Assembly: GCF_020034655.1 (NCBI RefSeq)
Contig: NZ_JAIQDJ010000010.1
Location: 1-64,000, forward strand
Source: Thermomonas beijingensis
Lineage (GTDB): Bacteria; Pseudomonadota; Gammaproteobacteria; Xanthomonadales; Xanthomonadaceae
Length of the DNA stretch: 64,000 bases
Reading direction: 5' to 3'
This document shows, one piece after another, positions 39,553-64,000 of the stretch. Each line of letters begins with the position of its first letter. Position 1 is the first letter of the stretch. The translations under genes and the position numbers were made by a program. Under the pieces are notes generated by a model. The model had not been told where the DNA came from. It searched no databases and saw only the letters and a list, made by a program, of their open reading frames with translations.

Positions 39553-40541
39553 GCGCGCAACACCACGTCCTCCGTGCGGTAGGACTGTCGCTGTTGGCAG
39601 CATTGTTATTCACCAGTACCTATGTGCTCAACCGCGCGGTGGCGGTGGGTGGCGGGCATTGGGCATGGACTGCCGCGCTGCGCTACTTGTTCATGCTGCC
39701 GCTACTGTTGCCGCTGATGCATTGGCAGGGCGGCATTGCCCCCGTGTGGCGTTCGCTCCGCGCCGCGCCGGGTGCATGGCTGGGCTGGAGCAGTGTCGGC
39801 TTTGCCCTGTTCTATGGACTGCTCAGCGCGGCCGCGGCCAGTGGCCCGTCGTGGCTGGTGGCCGGCAGTTTCCAGATGACGGCGGTGGCGGGCATGTTGT
39901 CTGCGCCCCTGTTGTATCGCGATGCACGGGCGCGCATCCCACGTACTGGATTTACGGTGGGCGTGCTGATTGTGACGGGCGTGCTACTGATGCAATTTGG
40001 CAATGCGCATGGGACCTTGACGCCTTCCGCATGGCTGGCTCTGGCCTGCGTACTGGTCAGTGCGTTTGCTTATCCACTGGGCAACCGTGGCCTGTTGCTG
40101 CATTTGGAACGGCGTGGTGAACCCCTCAATGCCACCCAGCGCGTCTTCGGAATGACCTTGGCCAGCCAACCGGCATGGTGGGCACTGGCACTATGGGCAT
40201 GGACGCAAACGGGGCCACCGCCTGCTGCGCAAATGGAAGCGATCTTTGTGGTGGCATTGGTCTCCGGTGTGGCCGCCACCATTCTGTTTTTCCATGCCAG
40301 TGGCATGGTTCGCAGCAATCCCACCGCGCTGGGCGCAGTGGAGGCCATGCAGGCATCGGAAGTGGTCTTTGCCGCACTGCTGGGGGTGATGTTCCTTGGC
40401 GAACCGTGGCCGCATGGACAAGCCTTGTTCGGCGGACTGCTGGTGGTCGCCGGAATTGCACTGTTTGCTTGGGTGGTGGCACACGAAGCGGCGCGGGATC
40501 AACGTGACGTGCAAGCACTGCGTAGCGAGCGTGGGCGTTAG
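39549..40541 (+). CDS. DMT-superfamily (EmrE/EamA-like) exporter
   Basis: This 330-residue protein has about ten hydrophobic helices (GLSLLAALLFTSTYVLNRAV; LRYLFMLPLLLPLM; VLIVTGVLLMQFG; VVALVSGVAATILFFHASGM). It resembles the 'multidrug resistance efflux transporter' family of the drug/metabolite superfamily. The ATG overlaps the bioC stop by 4 bp, so expression with biotin genes is likely, but a biotin-related substrate is only a guess. It is convergent with the dehydratase gene, overlapping by 4 bp. Confidence 0.8.
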   Translation: MSAQHHVLRAVGLSLLAALLFTSTYVLNRAVAVGGGHWAWTAALRYLFMLPLLLPLMHWQGGIAPVWRSLRAAPGAWLGWSSVGFALFYGLLSAAAASGPSWLVAGSFQMTAVAGMLSAPLLYRDARARIPRTGFTVGVLIVTGVLLMQFGNAHGTLTPSAWLALACVLVSAFAYPLGNRGLLLHLERRGEPLNATQRVFGMTLASQPAWWALALWAWTQTGPPPAAQMEAIFVVALVSGVAATILFFHASGMVRSNPTALGAVEAMQASEVVFAALLGVMFLGEPWPHGQALFGGLLVVAGIALFAWVVAHEAARDQRDVQALRSERGR

Positions 40542-41518
40542 CCGGCCGCCAGCAATCCCGGCAGTGCGTCCAAATCCACATTCCCGCCCGACAAAATAAC
40601 GCCCACCTTGCGCCCCGCGAAGACTGCGGGGTGCGCCAACACCGCCGCCAATACGGTGGCCGATGACGGCTCGACCAGTTGTTTGGTGCGCGACCACAGC
40701 AAGCGCAGCGCGGCCACGGCCTGGACATCATCCACCGTCAATACCTGCGCATCGCAGGCACGCAGGATTTCGAAATTGATCGCGCCCAGCGTGCCACGCA
40801 AGCCATCGCAAATGGTGTCCGGAATCCCCGCGTGATCCAGCGCACCGGCAGCAAACGATCGTGCACCGTCGGCAGCGCCGGCAGGTTCGGCCAGATACAA
40901 GCGGCAGTGCGGGGCCAGTGCGCGCATCGCCAATGCCGTACCTGCCGCCAAACCACCACCCCCCAATGGCACCACCAGTGCGTCCAACCCTGGTTGCGCG
41001 GTCAACAACTCCAATGCGGCGGTGCCTTGCCCGGCAATCACGCGCGGATCGGTATAGGGATGCACGCTGTTGCCGCCAGTTGTGGCTTGCACCTGCGCAC
41101 ACATCGCCTCGCGTGCCGCAAGCGTCGCTGCGCAGCGATGCAACTGAGCGCCGTAGTGCGCTATCGCCGCCACCTTGGCCGCCACCGCACCGTCCGGTAC
41201 CACCACATGGCAGGCAATCCCGCGCAGCTGCGCCGCCAGCGCCAGCGCTGCCCCGTGATTGCCGGAAGAATGCGTCACCACCCCACATGCGGCTTGCGCA
41301 GCGGTGAGTGACCACACCGCATTGCACGCGCCGCGAAACTTGAATGCACCCACGCGCTGCAAGTGTTCGGCTTTGAAGTACAGGCTTGCGCCAGTCATCG
41401 CATCCAGCGCGCGCGAGTGCAGCACGGGCGTCACATGCGCATACGGTGCGATGCGGGCGGCGGCGGTTTGCACATCGGCAAACGCGGGAAGTGGGGCACG
41501 GCTATCGGAAGCATTCAT
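40538..41518 (-). CDS. PLP-dependent threonine/serine dehydratase-type enzyme
   Basis: This 326-residue protein has fold-type II PLP motifs: EHLQRVGAFKFRGA (Schiff-base Lys), SSGNHGAALALAA (phosphate loop) and VVPLGGGGLAAGTAL. There is no C-terminal ACT domain, so it resembles catabolic threonine dehydratases, serine racemases or hydroxyaspartate dehydratases rather than full-length biosynthetic IlvA. Exact substrate cannot be assigned. Confidence 0.85.
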   Translation of the reverse strand: MNASDSRAPLPAFADVQTAAARIAPYAHVTPVLHSRALDAMTGASLYFKAEHLQRVGAFKFRGACNAVWSLTAAQAACGVVTHSSGNHGAALALAAQLRGIACHVVVPDGAVAAKVAAIAHYGAQLHRCAATLAAREAMCAQVQATTGGNSVHPYTDPRVIAGQGTAALELLTAQPGLDALVVPLGGGGLAAGTALAMRALAPHCRLYLAEPAGAADGARSFAAGALDHAGIPDTICDGLRGTLGAINFEILRACDAQVLTVDDVQAVAALRLLWSRTKQLVEPSSATVLAAVLAHPAVFAGRKVGVILSGGNVDLDALPGLLAAG

Positions 41519-41867
41519 TCAGCGCATGCTAACGCGCCAGCTGGTGATTGGCCGCGTTGTACACAGATCTGCGCGGCGCCAATTTCAATGCGGTGCATCG
41601 ACGATGCGTACGGAAAACACAAAAACGTGATCGCTTGCACAAGCTGAATCGAAGTTGGGCCAGCCTGTGACTTTCTGCGTCACTTCACGCCAGATCGCGC
41701 TACTCTACGCGCGTCGGTGCCTTGCAGGACTTTCCGGATCCCCCCTGTTCCGCCCGTCCTGCGGGCACCGACACTTTCCTGCACGCATCCCCCATGCATG
41801 TCAGCGACGACCACTTGCAGACGCAGTGGCGGTGCAGCTTCAGCGCACCAACAACAGCAGCACGCAT
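41519..41867. other. Intergenic, no gene supported
   Basis: This is the left part of the 538-bp gap between the dehydratase start and mnmG. Short open frames here have no recognisable similarity. It should hold the dehydratase promoter. C-rich runs near 41740 and 41788 are visible but unexplained. Confidence 0.5.
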
Positions 41868-41906
41868 AAAAAAAGAGGGCCGGATGTCCCCCGACACCCG
41901 GCCCTC
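41868..41906 (-). terminator. Intrinsic terminator of the candidate small RNA
   Basis: A perfect nine-pair stem GAGGGCCGG/CCGGCCCTC (41875-41883 with 41898-41906) extends by TGTC/GACA beyond one mismatch. On the minus strand it is followed by seven T. It is the strongest terminator in the window. Confidence 0.8.
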
Positions 41907-41984
41907 GTAGCGTCCTCGTTATGCGCAGGATCGGCCCCTGTTCAGTCCGATCATCACCTTGCGGCGTGCCACAGCGAGTGCTGA
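41868..41984 (-). ncRNA. Candidate sigma-54-dependent small RNA
   Basis: About 117 nt are expected from a start near 41984 to the end of a U-run. Three stem-loops are visible: SL1 pairs CATCA (41986-41982) with TGATG (41956-41952); SL2 pairs GATCGG (41952-41947) with CCGATC (41934-41929) around a 12-nt loop, sharing base 41952 with SL1; SL3 is the terminator. A sigma-54-type promoter lies directly upstream and no ORF with similarity lies in the transcript. I do not recognise an Rfam family. GGA motifs occur in SL3 and in the linker, but are too few to claim CsrA/RsmA binding. Confidence 0.55.
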
Positions 41985-41993
41985 TGAGGATAA

Positions 41994-42009
41994 AGCAGGA
42001 AGCGTGCCA
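41994..42009 (-). promoter_or_regulatory. Sigma-54 (-24/-12) promoter
   Basis: On the minus strand TGGCACG, four bases, then CTGCT matches the consensus TGGCACG-N4-TTGCW with one mismatch and exact GG-to-GC spacing. It predicts a start near 41983-41985, at the 5' edge of the folded region. The upstream activator site was not found by eye. Confidence 0.65.
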
Positions 42010-42056
42010 ACTTTTCAAAACCCAGCCCAGGCGCATTTGCGCGCGATAATTGCCCG

Positions 42057-43946
42057 ATGAACACGTCCTTCTACGCCTTCGATGTCATCGTGATTGGTGG
42101 CGGCCATGCCGGCACCGAAGCCGCACTGGCCTCTGCCCGCACCGGTGCGCGCACCTTGCTACTCACCCACAACATCGAAACCGTGGGTGCAATGAGTTGC
42201 AACCCGGCGATTGGCGGGATTGGGAAAGGCCATCTGGTCAAGGAAATCGACGCGCTCGGCGGCATCATGGGCAAGGCCGCCGATGCGGCCGGCATCCAGT
42301 GGCGCGTGCTCAATGCGTCGAAGGGGCCAGCCGTGCGTGCAACGCGCTGCCAAGCCGACCGCGCGCTGTATCGCAGCTTCATCCGGCGCACGGTGGAGAC
42401 ACAGCCCAACCTCACCGTATTTCAAGCCGCCGTCGATGATCTGGTGATCGTCAATGACGCCGTGCGCGGTGCGATCACGCAAACCGGCCTGACCTTCGCA
42501 GCCCCCGCCGTCGTGCTGACCGCAGGCACGTTTTTGGCCGGCAAAATCCATATCGGGCAAACCCAATACGCCGCCGGGCGCATGGGCGACGCACCGGCCA
42601 CCGCATTGGCGCACAAACTGCGCGAGGGCCGCTTTGTGGTGGACCGGCTCAAGACCGGCACGCCGCCACGGATTGACGGCCGCACCCTGGATTATTCGGT
42701 GATGAGCGAACAGCCCGGCGATGACCCACGCCCGGTGATGTCGTTCATGGGCAGCCATGCCGATCAACCCGCGCAAGTGAGTTGCTGGATCACCGATACC
42801 TGCGAGCGCACCCACCAAATCATCCGCGACGCACTACATCGCAGCCCGTTGTATTCCGGCCAGATCGAAGGCATCGGTCCGCGCTATTGCCCGTCGATTG
42901 AAGACAAGGTCGTGCGTTTTGCCGAGAAGGCCAGCCATCAGATTTTTGTCGAGCCCGAAGGCTTGTCGGTCACCGAAATCTACCCCAATGGCATCAGTAC
43001 TTCGCTGCCATTCGATGTGCAATTGGATCTGGTACGCAGCATTCGCGGCTTCGAACACGCGCATATCACCCGCCCCGGATATGCCATCGAATACGATTTC
43101 TTCGATCCACGCGGGCTCAAAGCCTCACTGGAAACCAAGGCGGTGGCCGGGCTGTTTTTTGCCGGCCAGATCAACGGCACCACCGGCTACGAAGAGGCCG
43201 CTGCGCAAGGCTTGTTGGCTGGCGTGAATGCGGCGCGCTTTGTGCGACAACAAGACGCCTGCACTCTGCGCCGCGATGAAGCGTATCTGGGCGTATTGGT
43301 GGATGACCTGATCACCCACGGCACCAGCGAGCCATACCGCATGTTCACCAGCCGCGCCGAGTACCGCCTGCAATTGCGCGAAGACAATGCCGATACCCGG
43401 CTCACGCCCATTGGCCATGCACTGGGCCTGGTGGATGAAGCGCGCTGGCAGGCATTTTCACGCAAGCGTGACGCGGTGGCCGCCGAAACCGCACGCCTGT
43501 CCAGCCTGTGGGCAGCACCCAATAACGCACTGGGCGCCGCATTGGCACGCGACCTTGGGATTGAAGTCAGCCGTGAAAACAATGCATTGGATTTGCTGCG
43601 CCGCCCGGAACTCGATTACTCGCGCCTGCTGCACGTGCCTGAATTCGGCCCCGCCGTGGACGATGCAAAAGTGGCCGAACAAGTCGAAATTGAAACCAAA
43701 TATGCCGGCTATCTGAACCGCCAGCGCGATGAGATCGCCCGCCAACAGCGCAACGAAGCCACCACCATCCCCACCCACTTCGACTACGCCCACGTGCGCG
43801 GCCTCTCCGCCGAAGTCCTGCAAAAGCTGCAGCGCGTACAGCCGCAAACCGTGGGCCAAGCGCAGCGTATCCCCGGGGTGACGCCAGCGGCGATTTCGCT
43901 GCTGTTGGTGCACCTGGAACGCGCCCGCCGCGAACGGGCGGCGTAA
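42057..43946 (+). CDS. mnmG: tRNA uridine-5-carboxymethylaminomethyl modification enzyme
   Basis: This 629-residue protein (GidA) has the FAD motif [17 protein letters not shown] at the N-terminus, then [20 protein letters not shown] and [26 protein letters not shown], and the C-terminal helical domain for MnmE and tRNA ([14 protein letters not shown]). With MnmE it makes cmnm5U34. It stands alone here. The divergent candidate sRNA lies just upstream. Confidence 0.97.
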
Positions 43947-54783: not shown

Positions 54784-55550
54784 TCGTAGTCACCCCGCCG
54801 AATGGTTTCTGGCTTGATTGGGGTATGAGGGTCAGGGAGCTTCGTCACTTGACCCGACGGGGACTTAATTTGAGTCTCAAGATTCAGATGTGGGCCTTGT
54901 TTCTGAACATGACCACTATTTGGGTTGACATCAAAACGAGCGTTCTTTGTGACCGTGTTTCCAGCGGCATCGACGGTGGAACTAGAGAACTGCACATTGC
55001 CAGCCGGTGTCAAAGCAACCTTGGCATCTGATCCCACGTGCGCGGCCCCTTTTTCCACGGCTTTAGTCATTGATATTGCTTCGTCCGCGTGTTTGAGGGC
55101 CTTTCCAGCAACATCACCAGCAATAGGAACGAAGCCCACGCCAGCGGCAACCACATTGATAACAGTGGGATTCTGGATCGCCTCAACAACACCCTTGATA
55201 TCGCCGATAACCGGCAAGAAATCAGCGATCAACCCAATCGTAGCCCTTGCCGTTGCTGGGTCAGGCGGAGCCATCTGGTACTGGCCCGTATAGAAGTTCG
55301 CTCCATCGCGACCATCCGGGTCAGTGAAGCGATACGGATTGTTAAAGGCGTAGGCGTATCGGTTGAAGTTCGTCATCGGCTTCTCGTAAGCCGTGACGGG
55401 ATCGACGGAGAGGAAGCGTCCGATCTGCGGATCGTAATAGCGCTGAACACTCTGACCCGACGCGATTCTCCACCGCCGACGGTGCGAGGCCTTGATGCGG
55501 CGCGGCTTGGCGAGTGCTGGCAGCCCTGACACGGGTTCGACGATCCTCAA
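54780..55550 (-). CDS. Orphan Rhs C-terminal tip 1 with toxin-24-like domain
   Basis: The frame from a TTG at 55550 gives 256 residues; there is no ATG. Residues 36-80 or so are the conserved Rhs core end, QRYYDPQIGRFLSVDP to NNPYRFTDPDGR. Before that lies sequence belonging to the mobile element. The variable part begins GANFYTGQYQ and ends with QKQGPHLNLETQ, like polymorphic toxin type 24 (uncertain). Orphan rhs tips are known reservoirs that can replace the tip of a complete rhs gene by recombination. Without a start codon, this copy may be silent. Confidence 0.65.
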   Translation of the reverse strand: MRIVEPVSGLPALAKPRRIKASHRRRWRIASGQSVQRYYDPQIGRFLSVDPVTAYEKPMTNFNRYAYAFNNPYRFTDPDGRDGANFYTGQYQMAPPDPATARATIGLIADFLPVIGDIKGVVEAIQNPTVINVVAAGVGFVPIAGDVAGKALKHADEAISMTKAVEKGAAHVGSDAKVALTPAGNVQFSSSTVDAAGNTVTKNARFDVNPNSGHVQKQGPHLNLETQIKSPSGQVTKLPDPHTPIKPETIRRGDYE

Positions 55551-56345
55551 AAAATCCCTTGATGCACTTTTTCGCCCAGACGGGCGCGCAGGTCAAGAGC
55601 AAGAGCGGTTTTGCAGGAGTGGATGATCGCTGATCGGATGGTGTCGCGTGTCCGGCTCGCCTCGCGGTGGCCAGCGTGTCGGTGCGGAAGAGCGCTCCTT
55701 CCAGTCGCAGTCAGCGTGGGCCTGCGGCCCACCAGGAGCGTACTCCGGGGTGTTGGGGCGGAGCCCCAACGGTGACGCTCTTGGAGGCGTGGCGAAGCGG
55801 GATCGCACGGGTCGCGGCGGCGGTGGAGAGGCGATTCAGTCTCGTCCTGCTGACCCGCTTTTCGTTTTGCTGTTGCTGTTCTGATGTCACGAAGCGGCGT
55901 CGGCTTGAACCGCGTAGCGGTTAAGCCGCGCCGCCTCGTGTACGCGAACGTGCGACGTGCTCTTGCGTGTGCGCGCAGCGCGCACGCGGCTTGAGTGGGC
56001 GTGCGCAGCACGCGCACTGCGCGGCCAAGGACGGCCGCGCCGGTGAGCGAGAGTGGTGGGGCCACGTGGCCCCGGCGCGACTGCGCCGGCAGGCCAGCCA
56101 ACATCAACGCAGATTATGCGAAGCGACGGGCTGGCGCGGCGCTTGCTGCGCATCGGCTCTTTGGCGCGCAGCCCTTGCGCAAGCGCCGTGACAGACCGGC
56201 GGTTTGCATAATCCGGCGTTATGTTGGGACTGCAACCCGCGCAGCGGGTTGGGCCGCGTGGCGCGACAGCGGCCATGGATGGCCGCAACGGGGTGATCGG
56301 TCGCGCGAGCATGCTGCTTGTCGGCGTCGGCTTGAACGCGAAGCG
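55551..56345. other. Non-coding hairpin-rich tract of the element, copy 1
   Basis: Open frames here are GC-driven and unsupported. Short perfect hairpins with three-base loops are dense: 55716-55732, 55752-55770, about 55905-55926 (AACCGC-GTA-GCGGTT), 55965-55987, 55999-56013, 56233-56251, 56335-56347. Longer palindromes lie at 56058-56073 and 56072-56089. A 40-bp hairpin recurs as a direct repeat at 55895-55935 and 56322-56360. No promoter or ORF explains the tract. Confidence 0.75.
56098..56227. repeat. 130-bp attC-shaped palindrome, copy 1
   Basis: 22-bp arms (56098-56119 and 56206-56227, CCAACAT...GATTATGC against GCATAATCC...ATGTTGG) differ at only a few positions. Between them lie two further paired blocks: GGGCTG/CAGCCC and GGCGCTTGC/GCAAGCGCC. 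Size and nested arms resemble integron attC sites, but the strict RYYYAAC/GTTRRRY core is absent. It is the best candidate recombination site for the adjacent recombinase. Confidence 0.55.
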
Positions 56346-57341
56346 TTAAGCCGCGCCGTCGGGATCGCGCGTGAGCCGCGCCGCCGGGTGCGTCGCCGCG
56401 TGCACGGCATGCAGGCGCGCAATGGAGACGTGTGTGTACCGCTGCGTGCTGGTGATCTGCCCGTGCCCGAGGATCTCCTGCACATGGCGGATGTCCGCCC
56501 CGTTGTCGAGCATGGCGGTCGCCATCGTGTGCCGGAACAGGTGGCACGCGCCGCGCTTGGTGATCCCGGCCTGCTTGAAGTAATCGCGCACACGCCAGCT
56601 CAACCCATCAGGAGAGAGGGGTTGTCCGTACTGATTCAGGAACAGGTGCTTTACCGTGGGATCGACCAGCACCGCCGGCCTGGCCTCGCGTTCGTATTTC
56701 GTGACCCATGCAAGAGCGCGTTCGCCGATGGGCACGAACCGATCCTTCTTGCCCTTGCCCAGCCGCACATGCAGCGTGCCGCGCGTGCGGTCGAGGTCGG
56801 ATTGATGCAGGTTCGTCAGCTCCACGCGCCTGATGCCGGTGGCGTAGAACAGTTCCAGGCATGCCCGATCCCGCAGGCCGTCCGGTGTCTCGATGTCGGG
56901 CAAGGCGAGGACGGTTTCCATTTCATCGAGCGTCAACGGCTCGCGCAGGTCGTCCGTGCGCTTGGGTAGCTCCAGATCGGCGGCAGGGTTCGACTCCAGG
57001 ACGCGCTGCCGCACCAGCCAACGGAAGAACATCTCCAGCGTGAACAGGGCCACCCGCTGACCATTGACCGCGATGGGCGCGCCGTTGGCCTTGCGATACA
57101 GGAATAGATGCCGCTGGAAGCGTTGCAAATGCGCGTGGGTCACCTCCTGCGGCTTGCCGATGCCGCGCTCCATGCACCACGCATGGAAGTGCGCCAGCCG
57201 GCTCCTGCGCGTGCGCACGTCGTTCACGCTGCGGTGCTGGGTCTCCAGTGCATCGAGGTAGCGACGCATCCATGCCGCCAGCCCGTCCGGATCGGACGGA
57301 GCCAGCAATAGGCGCAGTCGCTCGGTGCGAACGCCGGCCAT
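56346..57341 (-). CDS. XerC/XerD-like tyrosine recombinase, copy 1
   Basis: This protein has 331 residues from the ATG at 57341, two bases after the ATPase stop; a start at 57401 overlapping that gene is less likely. It has an N-terminal SAM-like DNA-binding domain. Catalytic residues are Arg171 in TGIRRVEL, a Lys in GKGKKDRFVPI, His267 and Arg270 in CHLFRHTMAT, His293 in LGHGQ, and Tyr302 in TQRYTH. It lacks the extra domain of integron IntI. It is followed by the hairpin tract and an Rhs tip. Confidence 0.92.
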   Translation of the reverse strand: MAGVRTERLRLLLAPSDPDGLAAWMRRYLDALETQHRSVNDVRTRRSRLAHFHAWCMERGIGKPQEVTHAHLQRFQRHLFLYRKANGAPIAVNGQRVALFTLEMFFRWLVRQRVLESNPAADLELPKRTDDLREPLTLDEMETVLALPDIETPDGLRDRACLELFYATGIRRVELTNLHQSDLDRTRGTLHVRLGKGKKDRFVPIGERALAWVTKYEREARPAVLVDPTVKHLFLNQYGQPLSPDGLSWRVRDYFKQAGITKRGACHLFRHTMATAMLDNGADIRHVQEILGHGQITSTQRYTHVSIARLHAVHAATHPAARLTRDPDGAA

Positions 57342-57342
57342 G

Positions 57343-59202
57343 TCAGTGGCCCGCCGTCGTGTGGCCGTTGAGCTTCCTGCTACGCGGTTTTGCAGCGACA
57401 ACCGCAGCGGGAACGCTGGAAGCCGCGTCGGGCGTGGCTTTGCGGGTCATTTGACCACCCCGCGAGGTACCCGCAAGGTCACCGCAAGGTGGCCGCAAGG
57501 TACCCGCAAGGTCGGAGGTCTGACCCCGCAAGGTCGCCGGTTTACCCCGCAAGGTCGTGTCGTTACCCCGCAAGGTCGGTGTGATTTCCGGTGCGGCAAG
57601 CCCCATCAACTGCGGTTCGGCACGGTCGTTCTGGCCATCGAACGCCAGACTGTAGGTGTACAAGCTGCCGTTCTGGCCGCTGTGCATGCGCACGTATTCC
57701 AACTGCACCAGTCGATCCAGATGCACCCGCAATTGCGTGTCCGACAGGCCCAGCACCCCACGCACCGTGCGACGGGTAAAGCGCACCCCCGCTTTCGCGG
57801 GGGCAGGCTCGCCGCGTGGCGTGTCGCTGCCCTGCACTTGCTGGCTTACCCACGCATCGAGCGCGGCCAGCACGCGCCTTGTTTGGGGTGGCAGTTCATC
57901 CAGCGAGCGACCCAGCACCGCATGCGCAAGCCGATTGGCCAGTGCGATATCAGCCTGCGTGACCTCGATGTACTCGACGCTCGCGCCGTCGACCTCGATC
58001 ACGCCGACCTTGCGCTGGTGCTGGTGCAGCAGCGCAATGGCGTCGATCAGGGCCAGGTACTTCACATGGTCGCGGCGCAGGCGCACGCGATCCGATGCGA
58101 AGGTCAGCGATTCGGCGAAGGGGTTCACCACCGCCAGCGGGCGTAGCAGCGTTTGCGCGGCGCGATGCGCACTCAACACATGCTCGCTGCGCACCTTCGC
58201 CTGCAAGCCTTGCAACGTGCGCGCCTGCCGCTGGCGCTGCTGGATCGCCGCCGTTTGTTCGGGGGTTTCGTTGATGGTGAGGACAAGACAGCGGTTCAAC
58301 AGCTCTTCGTCGATGTCGATGGCCGTGGTCGTCAGGCACAGCATCACCGGGCCTTCCACCCGATATTCCGACGTGACCAGCTTCCCCGTCGCCGGGTCTT
58401 TGCCCGTCGAGGCAATCGTGAGTTCGCCTTGCGACTGCAGCAGCTTCAACGCATAGGCGGCTTGGCGCACGCCTTCTTCCTCGGCAATCGCCAGAATCTT
58501 GTGCCGCAAGTCGCCCTCGCCGATGTAGAACAACGATTGCCCGGTCATCGCGCTGTAGTGGACGCGCTGGCCTTCCGGCATCAGCGACAGCAGCGCATCC
58601 ATCAGCGTCGATTTGCCGGCGGCGCTGGTGGACTGGATCAGGATCGCCAGCGGCTTGTCCAGCAGCCGCGAGGTCATCGCCAGATAGCCCACCAGTGCAT
58701 TGGTCGCCTCGCCGATCACGCCGATGGCCTCCACGTCGGCCGCGATGCGCGAGACAAGCTCGGGATCGCGCAGCAGCGCCAACCCGACGGCTTCCTGTTC
58801 GGCGGTGAGTGCGGGTGTCGTATCCGTGGCGTCCGGCTGCAACGCGCCCCGGATCGCCGCGTCCTGCACCGGCTCCAAGGCCAGCACCAGCGCCGACAGG
58901 TCGGCGAGGAGAAGGGATTCGGACACGCCGAGTTCAACGGCGGCGGCTTTCACGAACGCGGCACGCGAACGTGCCTGATACAGATCGAGCGTGTCCACGT
59001 GCAAGCGCTCGCCCAGCGACAGCCGAGCCGTCACCTTCAACGCCTCCGCGCTCAACGCCCGCGCCAGCCCACGCACCCGATACGCACGCGGGCCGCGCAG
59101 GAAGCGGGCTTCATCGGGCGAGACTATTTCGATGCCTTCACCGGCGGCGGGCAACAGCGGGGCGGCGAGCGGATCGGGGGCCTTTGGGGTGGTCGTGGGC
59201 AT
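57343..59202 (-). CDS. AAA-type ATPase related to CHC2-primase element proteins, copy 1
   Basis: This protein has 619 residues from the ATG at 59202, which has AGGAG eight bases upstream; an earlier ATG (59238) lacks this. Walker A is STSAAGKST (about residues 191-199), with HKILAIAEEEG as Walker B and TTTAIDIDEELLNR as sensor/finger. A winged-helix segment (RRTVRGVLGLSDTQLRVHLDRL) lies near 475. Relatives usually join a CHC2 zinc finger/TOPRIM half to this ATPase; that half is missing here. The last 40 codons contain a phased DNA repeat. A role in replication or transposition is inferred. Confidence 0.75.
   Translation of the reverse strand: MPTTTPKAPDPLAAPLLPAAGEGIEIVSPDEARFLRGPRAYRVRGLARALSAEALKVTARLSLGERLHVDTLDLYQARSRAAFVKAAAVELGVSESLLLADLSALVLALEPVQDAAIRGALQPDATDTTPALTAEQEAVGLALLRDPELVSRIAADVEAIGVIGEATNALVGYLAMTSRLLDKPLAILIQSTSAAGKSTLMDALLSLMPEGQRVHYSAMTGQSLFYIGEGDLRHKILAIAEEEGVRQAAYALKLLQSQGELTIASTGKDPATGKLVTSEYRVEGPVMLCLTTTAIDIDEELLNRCLVLTINETPEQTAAIQQRQRQARTLQGLQAKVRSEHVLSAHRAAQTLLRPLAVVNPFAESLTFASDRVRLRRDHVKYLALIDAIALLHQHQRKVGVIEVDGASVEYIEVTQADIALANRLAHAVLGRSLDELPPQTRRVLAALDAWVSQQVQGSDTPRGEPAPAKAGVRFTRRTVRGVLGLSDTQLRVHLDRLVQLEYVRMHSGQNGSLYTYSLAFDGQNDRAEPQLMGLAAPEITPTLRGNDTTLRGKPATLRGQTSDLAGTLRPPCGDLAGTSRGGQMTRKATPDAASSVPAAVVAAKPRSRKLNGHTTAGH
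57460..57576 (-). repeat. Phased 9-bp direct repeats (iteron-like), copy 1
   Basis: CCGCAAGGT (first copy CCGCGAGGT) starts at 57460, 57471, 57482, 57493, 57504, 57526, 57547 and 57568. Spacing is 11 bp four times, then 22, 21 and 21 bp: one or two helix turns. They lie in the 3' end of the ATPase gene, about 120 bp upstream of the recombinase start. Confidence 0.9.
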
Positions 59203-60297: not shown

Positions 60298-61103
60298 TTC
60301 AGCTTGTCGTCTTTGAGCTTAAAGGTCTCAGTTCTCGGAATACGAGAGCCTGTTTCCGCTTGGCCATAACGCAACGTGACTGTTCCGGTCTTCGTATTGA
60401 CCGAAATGCTCTTAATAGCGGAACCGGCGACGGGGTTGCCCTTCCCGCCCGGAGCAAATTGCTGGAACGCACCTTGCTTCCCCGTGCCGTTTCGCCCCGA
60501 CCAAACCGTCATCGTTGTTGTGTCACCCTGCTTTTTGTAATTGATCCAGCCATCGGCACCGGTCACCTTTGACCCATTCTTGTCCGCCATAACTTGCGCT
60601 TGATTGACGCCGAGGCTGTTCGTCATACCAAAGCGACACGAGAGCGAGAACACTGGCTCCCCAGGCTTCAACCCCATGCTGACCGCGTTGCTGTAGGTCT
60701 GATATGCATCCCAGTTTTCGTACGGCGCCCGTGTTTGATCTTGGATGATGCTTTCGTTTCCGTGGGAACCGACAGTGAATGTCCCCGGCAAATCGAACGC
60801 CGCTGCTGCGTTGTAGAAAAGACCGCCGTGGTCGTTTTGGAGGAAGTTGTTGACGTCTGTTCGGCCATCTGGGTCAACGAACTTGTACGGATTATTCGAG
60901 GCATACCAATACCGATTAAACGCCCCCACCGGATTGCTGTAAGCCGTGACGGGATCAACGGATAGGAACCTTCCGATCTGCGGATCGTAATAGCGCTGAA
61001 CACTCTGACCCGACGCGATTCTCCACCGCCGACGGTGCGAGGCCTTGATGCGGCGCGGCTTGGCGAGTGCTGGCAGCCCTGACACGGGTTCGACGATCCT
61101 CAA
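60294..61103 (-). CDS. Orphan Rhs C-terminal tip 2 with possible His/Cys protease-like domain
   Basis: This is a protein of 269 residues from a TTG, with the same first 55 residues as tip 1, including QRYYDPQIGRFLSVDPVTAY, and then NNPYKFVDPDGR. The variable domain has a hydrophobic strand ending in GSHGN (His114) and another ending FSLSCRFG (Cys156). This spacing recalls the His/Cys dyads of clan-CD peptidases (C80/caspase-like), but no profile match was possible. The domain is unrelated to tip 1. No ATG is present, so expression probably needs recombination with a full rhs gene. Confidence 0.6.
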   Translation of the reverse strand: MRIVEPVSGLPALAKPRRIKASHRRRWRIASGQSVQRYYDPQIGRFLSVDPVTAYSNPVGAFNRYWYASNNPYKFVDPDGRTDVNNFLQNDHGGLFYNAAAAFDLPGTFTVGSHGNESIIQDQTRAPYENWDAYQTYSNAVSMGLKPGEPVFSLSCRFGMTNSLGVNQAQVMADKNGSKVTGADGWINYKKQGDTTTMTVWSGRNGTGKQGAFQQFAPGGKGNPVAGSAIKSISVNTKTGTVTLRYGQAETGSRIPRTETFKLKDDKLK

Positions 61104-61898
61104 AAAATCCCTTGATGCACTTTTTCGCCCAGACGGGCGCGCAGGTCAAGAGCAAGAGCGGTTTTGCAGGAGTGGATGATCGCTGATCGGATGGTGTCGC
61201 GTGTCCGGCTCGCCTCGCGGTGGCCAGCGTGTCGGTGCGGAAGAGCGCTCCTTCCAGTCGCAGTCAGCGTGGGCCTGCGGCCCACCAGGAGCGTACTCCG
61301 GGGTGTTGGGGCGGAGCCCCAACGGTGACGCTCTTGGAGGCGTGGCGAAGCGGGATCGCACGGGTCGCGGCGGCGGTGGAGAGGCGATTCAGTCTCGTCC
61401 TGCTGACCCGCTTTTCGTTTTGCTGTTGCTGTTCTGATGTCACGAAGCGGCGTCGGCTTGAACCGCGTAGCGGTTAAGCCGCGCCGCCTCGTGTACGCGA
61501 ACGTGCGACGTGCTCTTGCGTGTGCGCGCAGCGCGCACGCGGCTTGAGTGGGCGTGCGCAGCACGCGCACTGCGCGGCCAAGGACGGCCGCGCCGGTGAG
61601 CGAGAGTGGTGGGGCCACGTGGCCCCGGCGCGACTGCGCCGGCAGGCCAGCCAACATCAACGCAGATTATGCGAAGCGACGGGCTGGCGCGGCGCTTGCT
61701 GCGCATCGGCTCTTTGGCGCGCAGCCCTTGCGCAAGCGCCGTGACAGACCGGCGGTTTGCATAATCCGGCGTTATGTTGGGACTGCAACCCGCGCAGCGG
61801 GTTGGGCCGCGTGGCGCGACAGCGGCCATGGATGGCCGCAACGGGGTGATCGGTCGCGCGAGCATGCTGCTTGTCGGCGTCGGCTTGAACGCGAAGCG
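61104..61898. other. Non-coding hairpin-rich tract, copy 2
   Basis: Same sequence and same hairpins as 55551-56345, shifted by 5,553 bp. The attC-shaped palindrome is at 61651-61780. Confidence 0.75.
61651..61780. repeat. 130-bp attC-shaped palindrome, copy 2
   Basis: Identical to the site at 56098-56227. Conservation in both modules next to an Rhs tip supports a function linked to the element. Confidence 0.55.
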
Positions 61899-62894
61899 TT
61901 AAGCCGCGCCGTCGGGATCGCGCGTGAGCCGCGCCGCCGGGTGCGTCGCCGCGTGCACGGCATGCAGGCGCGCAATGGAGACGTGTGTGTACCGCTGCGT
62001 GCTGGTGATCTGCCCGTGCCCGAGGATCTCCTGCACATGGCGGATGTCCGCCCCGTTGTCGAGCATGGCGGTCGCCATCGTGTGCCGGAACAGGTGGCAC
62101 GCGCCGCGCTTGGTGATCCCGGCCTGCTTGAAGTAATCGCGCACACGCCAGCTCAACCCATCAGGAGAGAGGGGTTGTCCGTACTGATTCAGGAACAGGT
62201 GCTTTACCGTGGGATCGACCAGCACCGCCGGCCTGGCCTCGCGTTCGTATTTCGTGACCCATGCAAGAGCGCGTTCGCCGATGGGCACGAACCGATCCTT
62301 CTTGCCCTTGCCCAGCCGCACATGCAGCGTGCCGCGCGTGCGGTCGAGGTCGGATTGATGCAGGTTCGTCAGCTCCACGCGCCTGATGCCGGTGGCGTAG
62401 AACAGTTCCAGGCATGCCCGATCCCGCAGGCCGTCCGGTGTCTCGATGTCGGGCAAGGCGAGGACGGTTTCCATTTCATCGAGCGTCAACGGCTCGCGCA
62501 GGTCGTCCGTGCGCTTGGGTAGCTCCAGATCGGCGGCAGGGTTCGACTCCAGGACGCGCTGCCGCACCAGCCAACGGAAGAACATCTCCAGCGTGAACAG
62601 GGCCACCCGCTGACCATTGACCGCGATGGGCGCGCCGTTGGCCTTGCGATACAGGAATAGATGCCGCTGGAAGCGTTGCAAATGCGCGTGGGTCACCTCC
62701 TGCGGCTTGCCGATGCCGCGCTCCATGCACCACGCATGGAAGTGCGCCAGCCGGCTCCTGCGCGTGCGCACGTCGTTCACGCTGCGGTGCTGGGTCTCCA
62801 GTGCATCGAGGTAGCGACGCATCCATGCCGCCAGCCCGTCCGGATCGGACGGAGCCAGCAATAGGCGCAGTCGCTCGGTGCGAACGCCGGCCAT
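61899..62894 (-). CDS. XerC/XerD-like tyrosine recombinase, copy 2
   Basis: The 331-residue translation is identical to copy 1, with the Arg-Lys-His-Arg-His-Tyr set intact. Both copies look functional. Confidence 0.92.
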   Translation of the reverse strand: MAGVRTERLRLLLAPSDPDGLAAWMRRYLDALETQHRSVNDVRTRRSRLAHFHAWCMERGIGKPQEVTHAHLQRFQRHLFLYRKANGAPIAVNGQRVALFTLEMFFRWLVRQRVLESNPAADLELPKRTDDLREPLTLDEMETVLALPDIETPDGLRDRACLELFYATGIRRVELTNLHQSDLDRTRGTLHVRLGKGKKDRFVPIGERALAWVTKYEREARPAVLVDPTVKHLFLNQYGQPLSPDGLSWRVRDYFKQAGITKRGACHLFRHTMATAMLDNGADIRHVQEILGHGQITSTQRYTHVSIARLHAVHAATHPAARLTRDPDGAA

Positions 62895-62895
62895 G

Positions 62896-64000
62896 TCAGT
62901 GGCCCGCCGTCGTGTGGCCGTTGAGCTTCCTGCTACGCGGTTTTGCAGCGACAACCGCAGCGGGAACGCTGGAAGCCGCGTCGGGCGTGGCTTTGCGGGT
63001 CATTTGACCACCCCGCGAGGTACCCGCAAGGTCACCGCAAGGTGGCCGCAAGGTACCCGCAAGGTCGGAGGTCTGACCCCGCAAGGTCGCCGGTTTACCC
63101 CGCAAGGTCGTGTCGTTACCCCGCAAGGTCGGTGTGATTTCCGGTGCGGCAAGCCCCATCAACTGCGGTTCGGCACGGTCGTTCTGGCCATCGAACGCCA
63201 GACTGTAGGTGTACAAGCTGCCGTTCTGGCCGCTGTGCATGCGCACGTATTCCAACTGCACCAGTCGATCCAGATGCACCCGCAATTGCGTGTCCGACAG
63301 GCCCAGCACCCCACGCACCGTGCGACGGGTAAAGCGCACCCCCGCTTTCGCGGGGGCAGGCTCGCCGCGTGGCGTGTCGCTGCCCTGCACTTGCTGGCTT
63401 ACCCACGCATCGAGCGCGGCCAGCACGCGCCTTGTTTGGGGTGGCAGTTCATCCAGCGAGCGACCCAGCACCGCATGCGCAAGCCGATTGGCCAGTGCGA
63501 TATCAGCCTGCGTGACCTCGATGTACTCGACGCTCGCGCCGTCGACCTCGATCACGCCGACCTTGCGCTGGTGCTGGTGCAGCAGCGCAATGGCGTCGAT
63601 CAGGGCCAGGTACTTCACATGGTCGCGGCGCAGGCGCACGCGATCCGATGCGAAGGTCAGCGATTCGGCGAAGGGGTTCACCACCGCCAGCGGGCGTAGC
63701 AGCGTTTGCGCGGCGCGATGCGCACTCAACACATGCTCGCTGCGCACCTTCGCCTGCAAGCCTTGCAACGTGCGCGCCTGCCGCTGGCGCTGCTGGATCG
63801 CCGCCGTTTGTTCGGGGGTTTCGTTGATGGTGAGGACAAGACAGCGGTTCAACAGCTCTTCGTCGATGTCGATGGCCGTGGTCGTCAGGCACAGCATCAC
63901 CGGGCCTTCCACCCGATATTCCGACGTGACCAGCTTCCCCGTCGCCGGGTCTTTGCCCGTCGAGGCAATCGTGAGTTCGCCTTGCGACTGCAGCAGCTTC
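62896..64000 (-). CDS. AAA-type ATPase, copy 2, 5' end outside window
   Basis: The C-terminal 368 codons or so are visible and identical to copy 1. The frame is open to the last base, so the Walker A region lies outside. It keeps the 2-bp spacing to the recombinase and the repeat array. Confidence 0.85.
   Translation of the reverse strand, partial: KLLQSQGELTIASTGKDPATGKLVTSEYRVEGPVMLCLTTTAIDIDEELLNRCLVLTINETPEQTAAIQQRQRQARTLQGLQAKVRSEHVLSAHRAAQTLLRPLAVVNPFAESLTFASDRVRLRRDHVKYLALIDAIALLHQHQRKVGVIEVDGASVEYIEVTQADIALANRLAHAVLGRSLDELPPQTRRVLAALDAWVSQQVQGSDTPRGEPAPAKAGVRFTRRTVRGVLGLSDTQLRVHLDRLVQLEYVRMHSGQNGSLYTYSLAFDGQNDRAEPQLMGLAAPEITPTLRGNDTTLRGKPATLRGQTSDLAGTLRPPCGDLAGTSRGGQMTRKATPDAASSVPAAVVAAKPRSRKLNGHTTAGH
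63013..63129 (-). repeat. Phased 9-bp direct repeats, copy 2
   Basis: Same eight CCGCAAGGT-type copies with the same 11- and 21/22-bp spacing as at 57460-57576. Confidence 0.9.

Follow-up and report, generated by a model that had tools for sequence, protein, structure and literature searches.

The DNA analysed here, referred to as the window, is a stretch of 64,000 nucleotides from Thermomonas beijingensis in which two structured elements lie between mnmG (gidA), at 42057..43946 on the plus strand (PF01134, E 4.2e-169), and a PLP-dependent enzyme on the minus strand at 40538..41518 (PF00291, E 9.5e-72), named by eye as threonine-dehydratase-like. The element nearer to mnmG is the small RNA asX1, transcribed away from mnmG behind a predicted sigma-54 promoter, with the PLP-dependent enzyme downstream of it; the other is a putative hairpin RNA that faces asX1. 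An earlier note on this DNA had proposed, next to mnmG, a folded small RNA driven by a sigma-54 promoter, and comparison across relatives supports this, sigma-54 dependence being a prediction. The RNA and promoter of that reading were borne out, while the RNA turned out to be one already known as asX1 and the neighbouring partner hairpin had been overlooked. The RNA had also been described as antisense to mnmG, for which divergent is the better term: the promoter faces away from the mnmG start at 42057 and the coding sequence is not overlapped.

Readthrough from asX1 into the threonine-dehydratase-like gene was considered and set aside, as adjacency to asX1 could not be shown for XF1819, the annotated catabolic threonine dehydratase that is activated by RpoN in Xylella under nitrogen starvation according to the available sections of PMC3224663. 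The table of predicted RpoN sites in that paper covers only regions that lie upstream of annotated genes on the coding strand, and in the part of it available no mnmG/gidA entry was seen. Elsewhere in the window, four pairs of pattern hits (55526/61079, 56132/61685, 56542/62095, and 57861/63414) connect the regions ~55500-57900 and 61050-63450 at a constant offset of 5553 bases, which makes a long direct duplication likely.

Identity of asX1 and its predicted promoter

asX1 occupies 41868..41983 on the minus strand. The minus strand from 41984 to 41868 folds at -58.3 kcal/mol (z -4.65), with none of 200 shuffles equally good; for the opposite strand over almost the same interval (41884-42009), z is -0.98. 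The fold ends in an intrinsic terminator at 41875..41906 (minus strand), with 14 pairs, 10 of them G-C, and a G-rich loop, followed by T7. The earlier note had singled this out as the best terminator in the window, in agreement with which its stem is the longest among the terminator-like sites listed for the window. It had also seen no ORF here; mechanically called ORFs of 62-118 aa run through the region, but nothing found short of a homology search favours them.

A permissive Rfam scan matched RF02235 at 69.5 bits (E 2.8e-10) over model positions 1-115 of 115, and the gathering scan missed the RNA because this score is 0.5 bit below the cut-off of 70. The RNA in the window is almost certainly an orthologue of asX1 and hence already known in itself. 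Within the window's family, RF02235 was found in 218 of 247 genomes at E<=0.001 and above the cut-off in 188 of 247, versus none of 14 control genomes. Among 11 named loci, cmscan recovered asX1 in all 10 that were scanned, and five named Luteimonas or Lysobacteraceae loci that a regular expression had missed each proved, on reading of the sequence, to have both the promoter and asX1. The position is syntenic with that in named Xanthomonas loci.

The Infernal search that had been suggested for this RNA returned a match to RF02235, and the pairs of asX1 covary. In an alignment of 51 sequences, 25 of 34 pairs have double-sided changes (0 of 500 shuffles), 96.0% of cells are paired, and the terminator helix, also with covariation, reaches 98.5%. 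The strand is known in this case, and the strand test gave 121 G-U versus 20 A-C cells. Expression of asX1 in Xanthomonas campestris pv. raphani is described in the available part of PMC4652430, and Xylella asX1 is placed in cellular RNA only, not vesicular, in that of PMC12189769; the literature searched, as far as its texts were available, assigns asX1 no role.

The sigma-54 -24/-12 element TTGGCACGCTTCCTGC lies at 41995..42010 on the minus strand and predicts a +1 near 41983. It agrees with the consensus TGGCACG-N4-TTGC, as given in the available sections of PMC3224663, apart from one T, and nowhere else in the 64-kb window is TGGCACG-N5-TGCW matched exactly. By itself the motif carries little weight, since allowing up to one mismatch yields 13 matches in the window against 9.2 expected. 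The pattern TGGCAC-N6-TGCW occurs 45 times in the window's own genome, compared with 18 for a reversed control pattern.

What raises the promoter call above chance is that TGGCA-N7-TGC sits at the same place, opening the conserved block, in 86 of 86 asX1 family loci from 35 genera; other sites of this pattern in the same loci amount to 13 per 504 kb, both strands counted. An early alignment of the region comprised 30 loci, one of them truncated, and 91 loci were then anchored by profile; the 86 are these 91 minus the truncated locus (L033) and four duplicates, and alignments A1 and A2 hold 51 of the 86, near-duplicates within genera having been thinned. Column identity is 98-100% for TTGGCA and 100% for TGC, then drops to 73% at the first base upstream of TTGGCA, to 60-64% over the two bases after that and to roughly 30-60% farther out, so that conservation begins with a sharp boundary at the sigma-54 element. 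GG and GC stand at -24/-12 with exact spacing in all 86 loci. The Rfam match starts at 41980, 3 nt from the predicted +1, and the same 3 nt separate the two in Xanthomonas cannabis. The near-consensus element with exact spacing noted earlier is therefore a family-wide feature, and promoter and terminator, on whose conservation in relatives the earlier reading depended, are both conserved. From this pattern of conservation we consider it very probable that asX1 is driven by a sigma-54 promoter.

A convergent hairpin with a C-rich tip

The second element, at 41713..41772 on the plus strand, is a long hairpin with a C-rich tip, present in single copy, convergent to asX1, and recognised by its fold, covariation and a model match. 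The plus strand of 41711-41800 folds at z -6.76. The conserved tip GGATCCCCCCTGTTCC (41736..41751, plus strand), within which CCCCTGTTC lies at 41742-41750 on the same strand, was present at 91 of 91 family loci examined, and its nearly invariant form is GGAUCCCCCCUGUUCC (87 exact, 4 variants); this linkage count is conditional on asX1, because the loci were found through asX1. The exact tip string occurs once each in 22 of 25 genomes of the genus, including the window genome, and in 0 of 16 genomes from other families. The hairpin is convergent to asX1 in 89 of the 91 loci and on the same strand in L034 and L126, both loci of one genome, and the distance from asX1 terminator to tip ranges from roughly 1 to 218 nt, with a median of 84.

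Double-sided changes are found in 10 of 17 hairpin pairs (0 of 500 shuffles), and G-U cells outnumber A-C cells within these pairs by 102 to 13, which argues that it is the plus strand that folds as RNA. Judged from these substitutions, the second element is probably a plus-strand RNA. The hairpin covariance model R1, whose alignment includes this locus, matches the window at 41706-41785 with 66.4 bits. Rfam contains no credible match to the hairpin in the window or in six relatives, and the sX13 model (RF02232) gave none at E<=10 in the window stretch and none at E<=1 in the six relatives.

A dyad, TGAC-N7-GTCA, lies upstream of the hairpin at 41668..41682 and is probably its control site; in the form TGAC-N7-GTCR it recurs in 46 of 51 loci, ~64-91 nt ahead of the tip, and is seen in 2 of 1020 mononucleotide shuffles. 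A possible -10 (TACTCT) can be seen by eye at 41701..41706 on the plus strand. Terminator-like sites right after the hairpin were found in 9 of 51 loci (2 of 1020 mononucleotide shuffles) and in 2 of 20 order-level loci. Given the conserved upstream dyad and the terminator-like site in 9 of 51 loci, the hairpin looks like an independent, putative sRNA gene. By eye, a third TGAC half-site often follows the dyad. Three loci (L127, L128, and L129), Xanthomonas-like ones among them, have a tyrosine/glycine-rich lipoprotein-like gene upstream of the hairpin and in the same orientation.

The hairpin could instead be the 5' leader of a long mnmG mRNA, with asX1 as a sigma-54 antisense RNA that tunes MnmG and tRNA modification. 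In nearly all loci the hairpin does precede mnmG in the same orientation, asX1 lying antisense between them, and no terminator is evident after it in 42 of 51 loci. Against this, the terminator-like site follows directly in the other 9, far above the shuffles, and L013, L032, and L112 keep both RNAs together with no mnmG within the 1.2-1.5 kb flank, while in L034, from another genus, asX1 alone is inverted with the hairpin in place. We regard the leader reading as very improbable. The position beside mnmG given in the earlier note is the usual one but mostly reflects synteny, since three loci keep the pair without it; for the same reason, and because of the inversion in L034, mnmG is a neighbour and not likely the target.

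Loop complementarity within the family and across the order

The apical loop of asX1 carries the anti-loop motif GAACAGGGG (41935..41943, minus strand), which is conserved and complementary to the hairpin tip: hairpin CCCCUGUUC(C) matches the conserved loop (G)GAACAGGGG. Across 51 aligned sequences, GAAC and two of the G's of the anti-loop are invariant and its other A and G's are conserved to at least 90%; the window has GAACAGGGG where most other genera have GGAACAGGGG. The longest perfect run between asX1 and hairpin averages 9.0 nt in 78 locus pairs (L276, L279, L280, L281, L282, and L283 having been left out), versus 5.9 nt in dinucleotide shuffles. Sixty-five of the 78 pairs lay at or below 5 of 100 shuffles and 13 above, including L109, L268, and L275 of the window's family. 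Both loops are predicted to be accessible, with hairpin CCCCUG unpaired to a mean of 88% (more than half in 78 of 78) and asX1 CAGGGN to a mean of 64% (more than half in 61 of 77). Since the hairpin tip scarcely varies, the family shows little classical covariation linking asX1 to the hairpin.

Across the order, 161 of 299 genomes have a match to the hairpin model, and most of the other-family loci that were read have the tip GGATTCCCCCTGTTCC. We collected 33 further hairpin loci (14 of the window's family, 19 of other families) in sets of 20, 11, and 2, the set of 11 coming from 38 genomes most of which had come up without asX1 or without the hairpin in stricter searches. In 32 of the 33, a sigma-54-like element and then CAGGG stand in the interval from the mnmG side to the hairpin; the strict pattern detects 24 of these, and the other 8 emerge with the relaxed one only. 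At L279, from the single genome of family f5 examined (G039), the hairpin and GGGAACAGGGGC are found and rpoN is present, and no sigma-54 element is visible between the mnmG side and the hairpin. Of 20 genomes in which Rfam detects no asX1, half contain the hairpin together with a divergent RNA where asX1 would lie, so the RF02235 count of 218 of 247 is an undercount; in the other 10 the hairpin was not found either.

A second sigma-54-like promoter, on the asX1 strand and 165-217 nt beyond the hairpin, was observed at 8 of the 20 loci in the largest of the three sets (L251, L252, L253, L257, L258, L262, L263, and L270), in families f12 and f3. At 7 of these 8 it is followed by a similar 60-76-aa protein (..HDLLIE.G..), with L253 having a different longest frame; one such protein that was tested had no Pfam match.

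In the distant family f11, the RNA at the asX1 place consists, in the five genomes examined, of promoter, anti-loop and terminator, the terminators being called by eye. Its anti-loops complement the first half of the tip (GGATTCCCCCTG) and not the second: L260 and L261 carry CAGGGGGAATC, with 11 nt complementary to GGATTCCCCCTG, L283 carries CAGGGGGAATCC, with 12 nt complementary in a different register, L259 has CAGGGGGAGTCC, and L282 the looser CAGGGGGGGAGTCC. Since f11 keeps the complementarity while its register changes, we take this shift as the strongest sign that the RNA may serve to pair with the tip.

The complementarity could also be a coincidence of G-rich and C-rich sequences, asX1 being a sigma-54 sRNA with unrelated mRNA targets. 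Such composition makes some complementarity easy, and in f12 and f3 the complementary run shortens to 6-8 nt, an argument against the need for an extended pairing. The conservation of both loops in linkage and the shifted but extended complement in f11 fit poorly with this, and coincidence seems to us improbable. That asX1 and the hairpin pair in vivo is, on the conserved complementarity, likely.

A further alternative is that asX1 is chiefly a decoy for sX13, with the neighbouring hairpin as a related second client. sX13 matches the window genome at 64.6 bits, on a different contig from asX1, and is found in 39 of 60 relatives at E<=0.001 (29 of 60 above the cut-off), with one sub-threshold hit in 14 controls. 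Its loops hold CCCCUG runs, and sX13 represses 4G-motif mRNAs in the available text of PMC3771888. The core shared with the sX13 loops is however ~6 nt by eye, where most of the family has 9-10 nt of complementarity with the neighbouring hairpin, and this hairpin is linked at every family locus examined, which leaves sX13 rather unlikely as the chief client.

Candidate activators, a possible mechanism and known systems

A search for rpoN in 35 genomes with asX1, or with an RNA in its position, was positive in 34, among them the window genome. The exception, G062 (L275), has the hairpin, a sigma-54-like element and CAGGGG, and is a draft, 82% complete, in 710 contigs. Absence of rpoN was rejected as a cause of missing Rfam asX1 hits, as 18 of 20 such genomes still have it, and for the same reason the presence of rpoN is not discriminating.

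The window genome has seven enhancer-binding-domain matches, three of them strong: NtrC (TIGR01818, 662 bits against a cut-off of 559), a protein that we take to be PilR-like, by eye, from its neighbouring kinase and its sequence, and a third response regulator. The one reduced, asX1-bearing genome whose set was identified (G193, 2.1 Mb) also has three strong enhancer-binding proteins. NtrC and the PilR-like protein are the two strong ones common to both genomes, from which we infer that they are the likeliest activators of asX1. NtrC binds TGCACC-N5-GGTGCA and GlrR binds TGTC-N10-GACA. Upstream of 51 promoters, full matches to the NtrC sequence, its core, the GlrR sequence and TGAC-N7-GTCA numbered 0, 0, 0, and 1 of 51, and the best matches to these enhancer consensus strings were barely above mononucleotide shuffles.

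The conservation of both RNAs and their loops suggests a conserved two-RNA regulatory pair of asX1 and a complementary hairpin. In the model that we propose, asX1 would be transcribed by sigma-54 RNA polymerase, as its conserved promoter indicates, and would therefore need an activated enhancer-binding protein. The stable RNA would present (G)GAACAGGGG in its apical loop and a run of G in its terminator loop, and its main partner would be the neighbouring hairpin RNA, whose apical loop would show CCCCCCUGU. The two may pair loop to loop over about 6-12 bp, as the conserved complementarity implies. By analogy with sX13, the C-loop hairpin would most likely act on G-rich sites near translation starts, and when sigma-54 is active asX1 might relieve its repression as an inducible decoy. 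We lean slightly towards this overall reading, in which a sigma-54-inducible asX1 serves as an anti-loop (decoy) RNA for the neighbouring C-loop sRNA.

Which of the two RNAs would be the decoy is a separate matter, and that it is asX1, with the hairpin as regulator, has an even chance in our estimate. With the roles reversed, the G-rich loops of asX1 would regulate C-rich mRNA sites, and the hairpin would be a sponge until transcription from sigma-54 exceeds it. The complementarity is symmetric, the hairpin tip varies less than the asX1 motif, and the asX1 fold is the more complex of the two, all of which suit this reversal. The f11 RNA, of which promoter, anti-loop and terminator remain, is more what one would expect of an antagonist than of a regulator with mRNA targets of its own, and we consider reversed roles unlikely, if the least so of the alternatives. 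Extended to the whole order, the decoy reading becomes a two-RNA switch of sigma-54 anti-loop RNA and C-loop RNA, its logic kept at ~55 nt or in another register, that would place G-rich ribosome-binding sites under post-transcriptional control by nitrogen or pilus signals; we put forward this wider version tentatively, as somewhat short of an even chance.

asX1 itself is known, from a founding paper that is reportedly that of Schmidtke in 2012. The literature searched, which did not cover that paper, contains no link between asX1 and sigma-54 and no description of the partner hairpin, so that the promoter, the hairpin and the loop-loop complementarity are apparently undescribed there. With them asX1 acquires sigma-54 as a candidate signal, a putative partner RNA that matches no Rfam family, and a pairing that can be tested. 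If the proposal is true, the locus encodes an order-wide, chromosomal pair of antagonistic RNAs with sigma-54 as inducer, and the sigma-54 regulon would be joined to the sRNAs whose C-rich loops, in Xanthomonas, bring about repression of 4G-motif mRNAs such as pilH and hfq.

Among known systems, asX1 of Xanthomonas and Xylella (RF02235) shares sequence, structure, synteny beside mnmG, and a full-length model match with the window RNA. The window copy differs in scoring 0.5 bit under the cut-off, and the available portions of PMC4652430 and PMC12189769 mention no sigma-54 promoter or partner. The C-rich loops of sX13 (RF02232, Xanthomonas) repress 4G-motif mRNAs, for example pilH and hfq fusions, without needing Hfq, as described in the accessible part of PMC3771888. 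The partner hairpin resembles sX13 in having a CCCC-type apical loop in a rigid stem, but is one hairpin where sX13 has three, lies at a locus without an sX13 match, and is linked to asX1 at all loci examined.

CrcZ-type RNAs of Pseudomonas are sigma-54-dependent decoys that titrate a protein (Hfq/Crc) through CA-rich motifs. asX1 would likewise be a sigma-54-driven RNA that titrates a repressor, its proposed client being an RNA loop instead. GlmY/GlmZ and Qrr are sigma-54-dependent sRNAs with -24/-12 promoters and share with asX1 the arrangement of an sRNA behind such a promoter; their Rfam families had no match in the window scans, and we know of no convergent complementary partner RNA in either system. 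RNAI/RNAII and CopA/CopT are kissing-loop antisense pairs in which linked RNAs are complementary loop to loop. The complementarity of asX1 and the hairpin is also between the loops of linked RNAs, whereas their structured regions do not overlap and the complementarity is confined to the loops.
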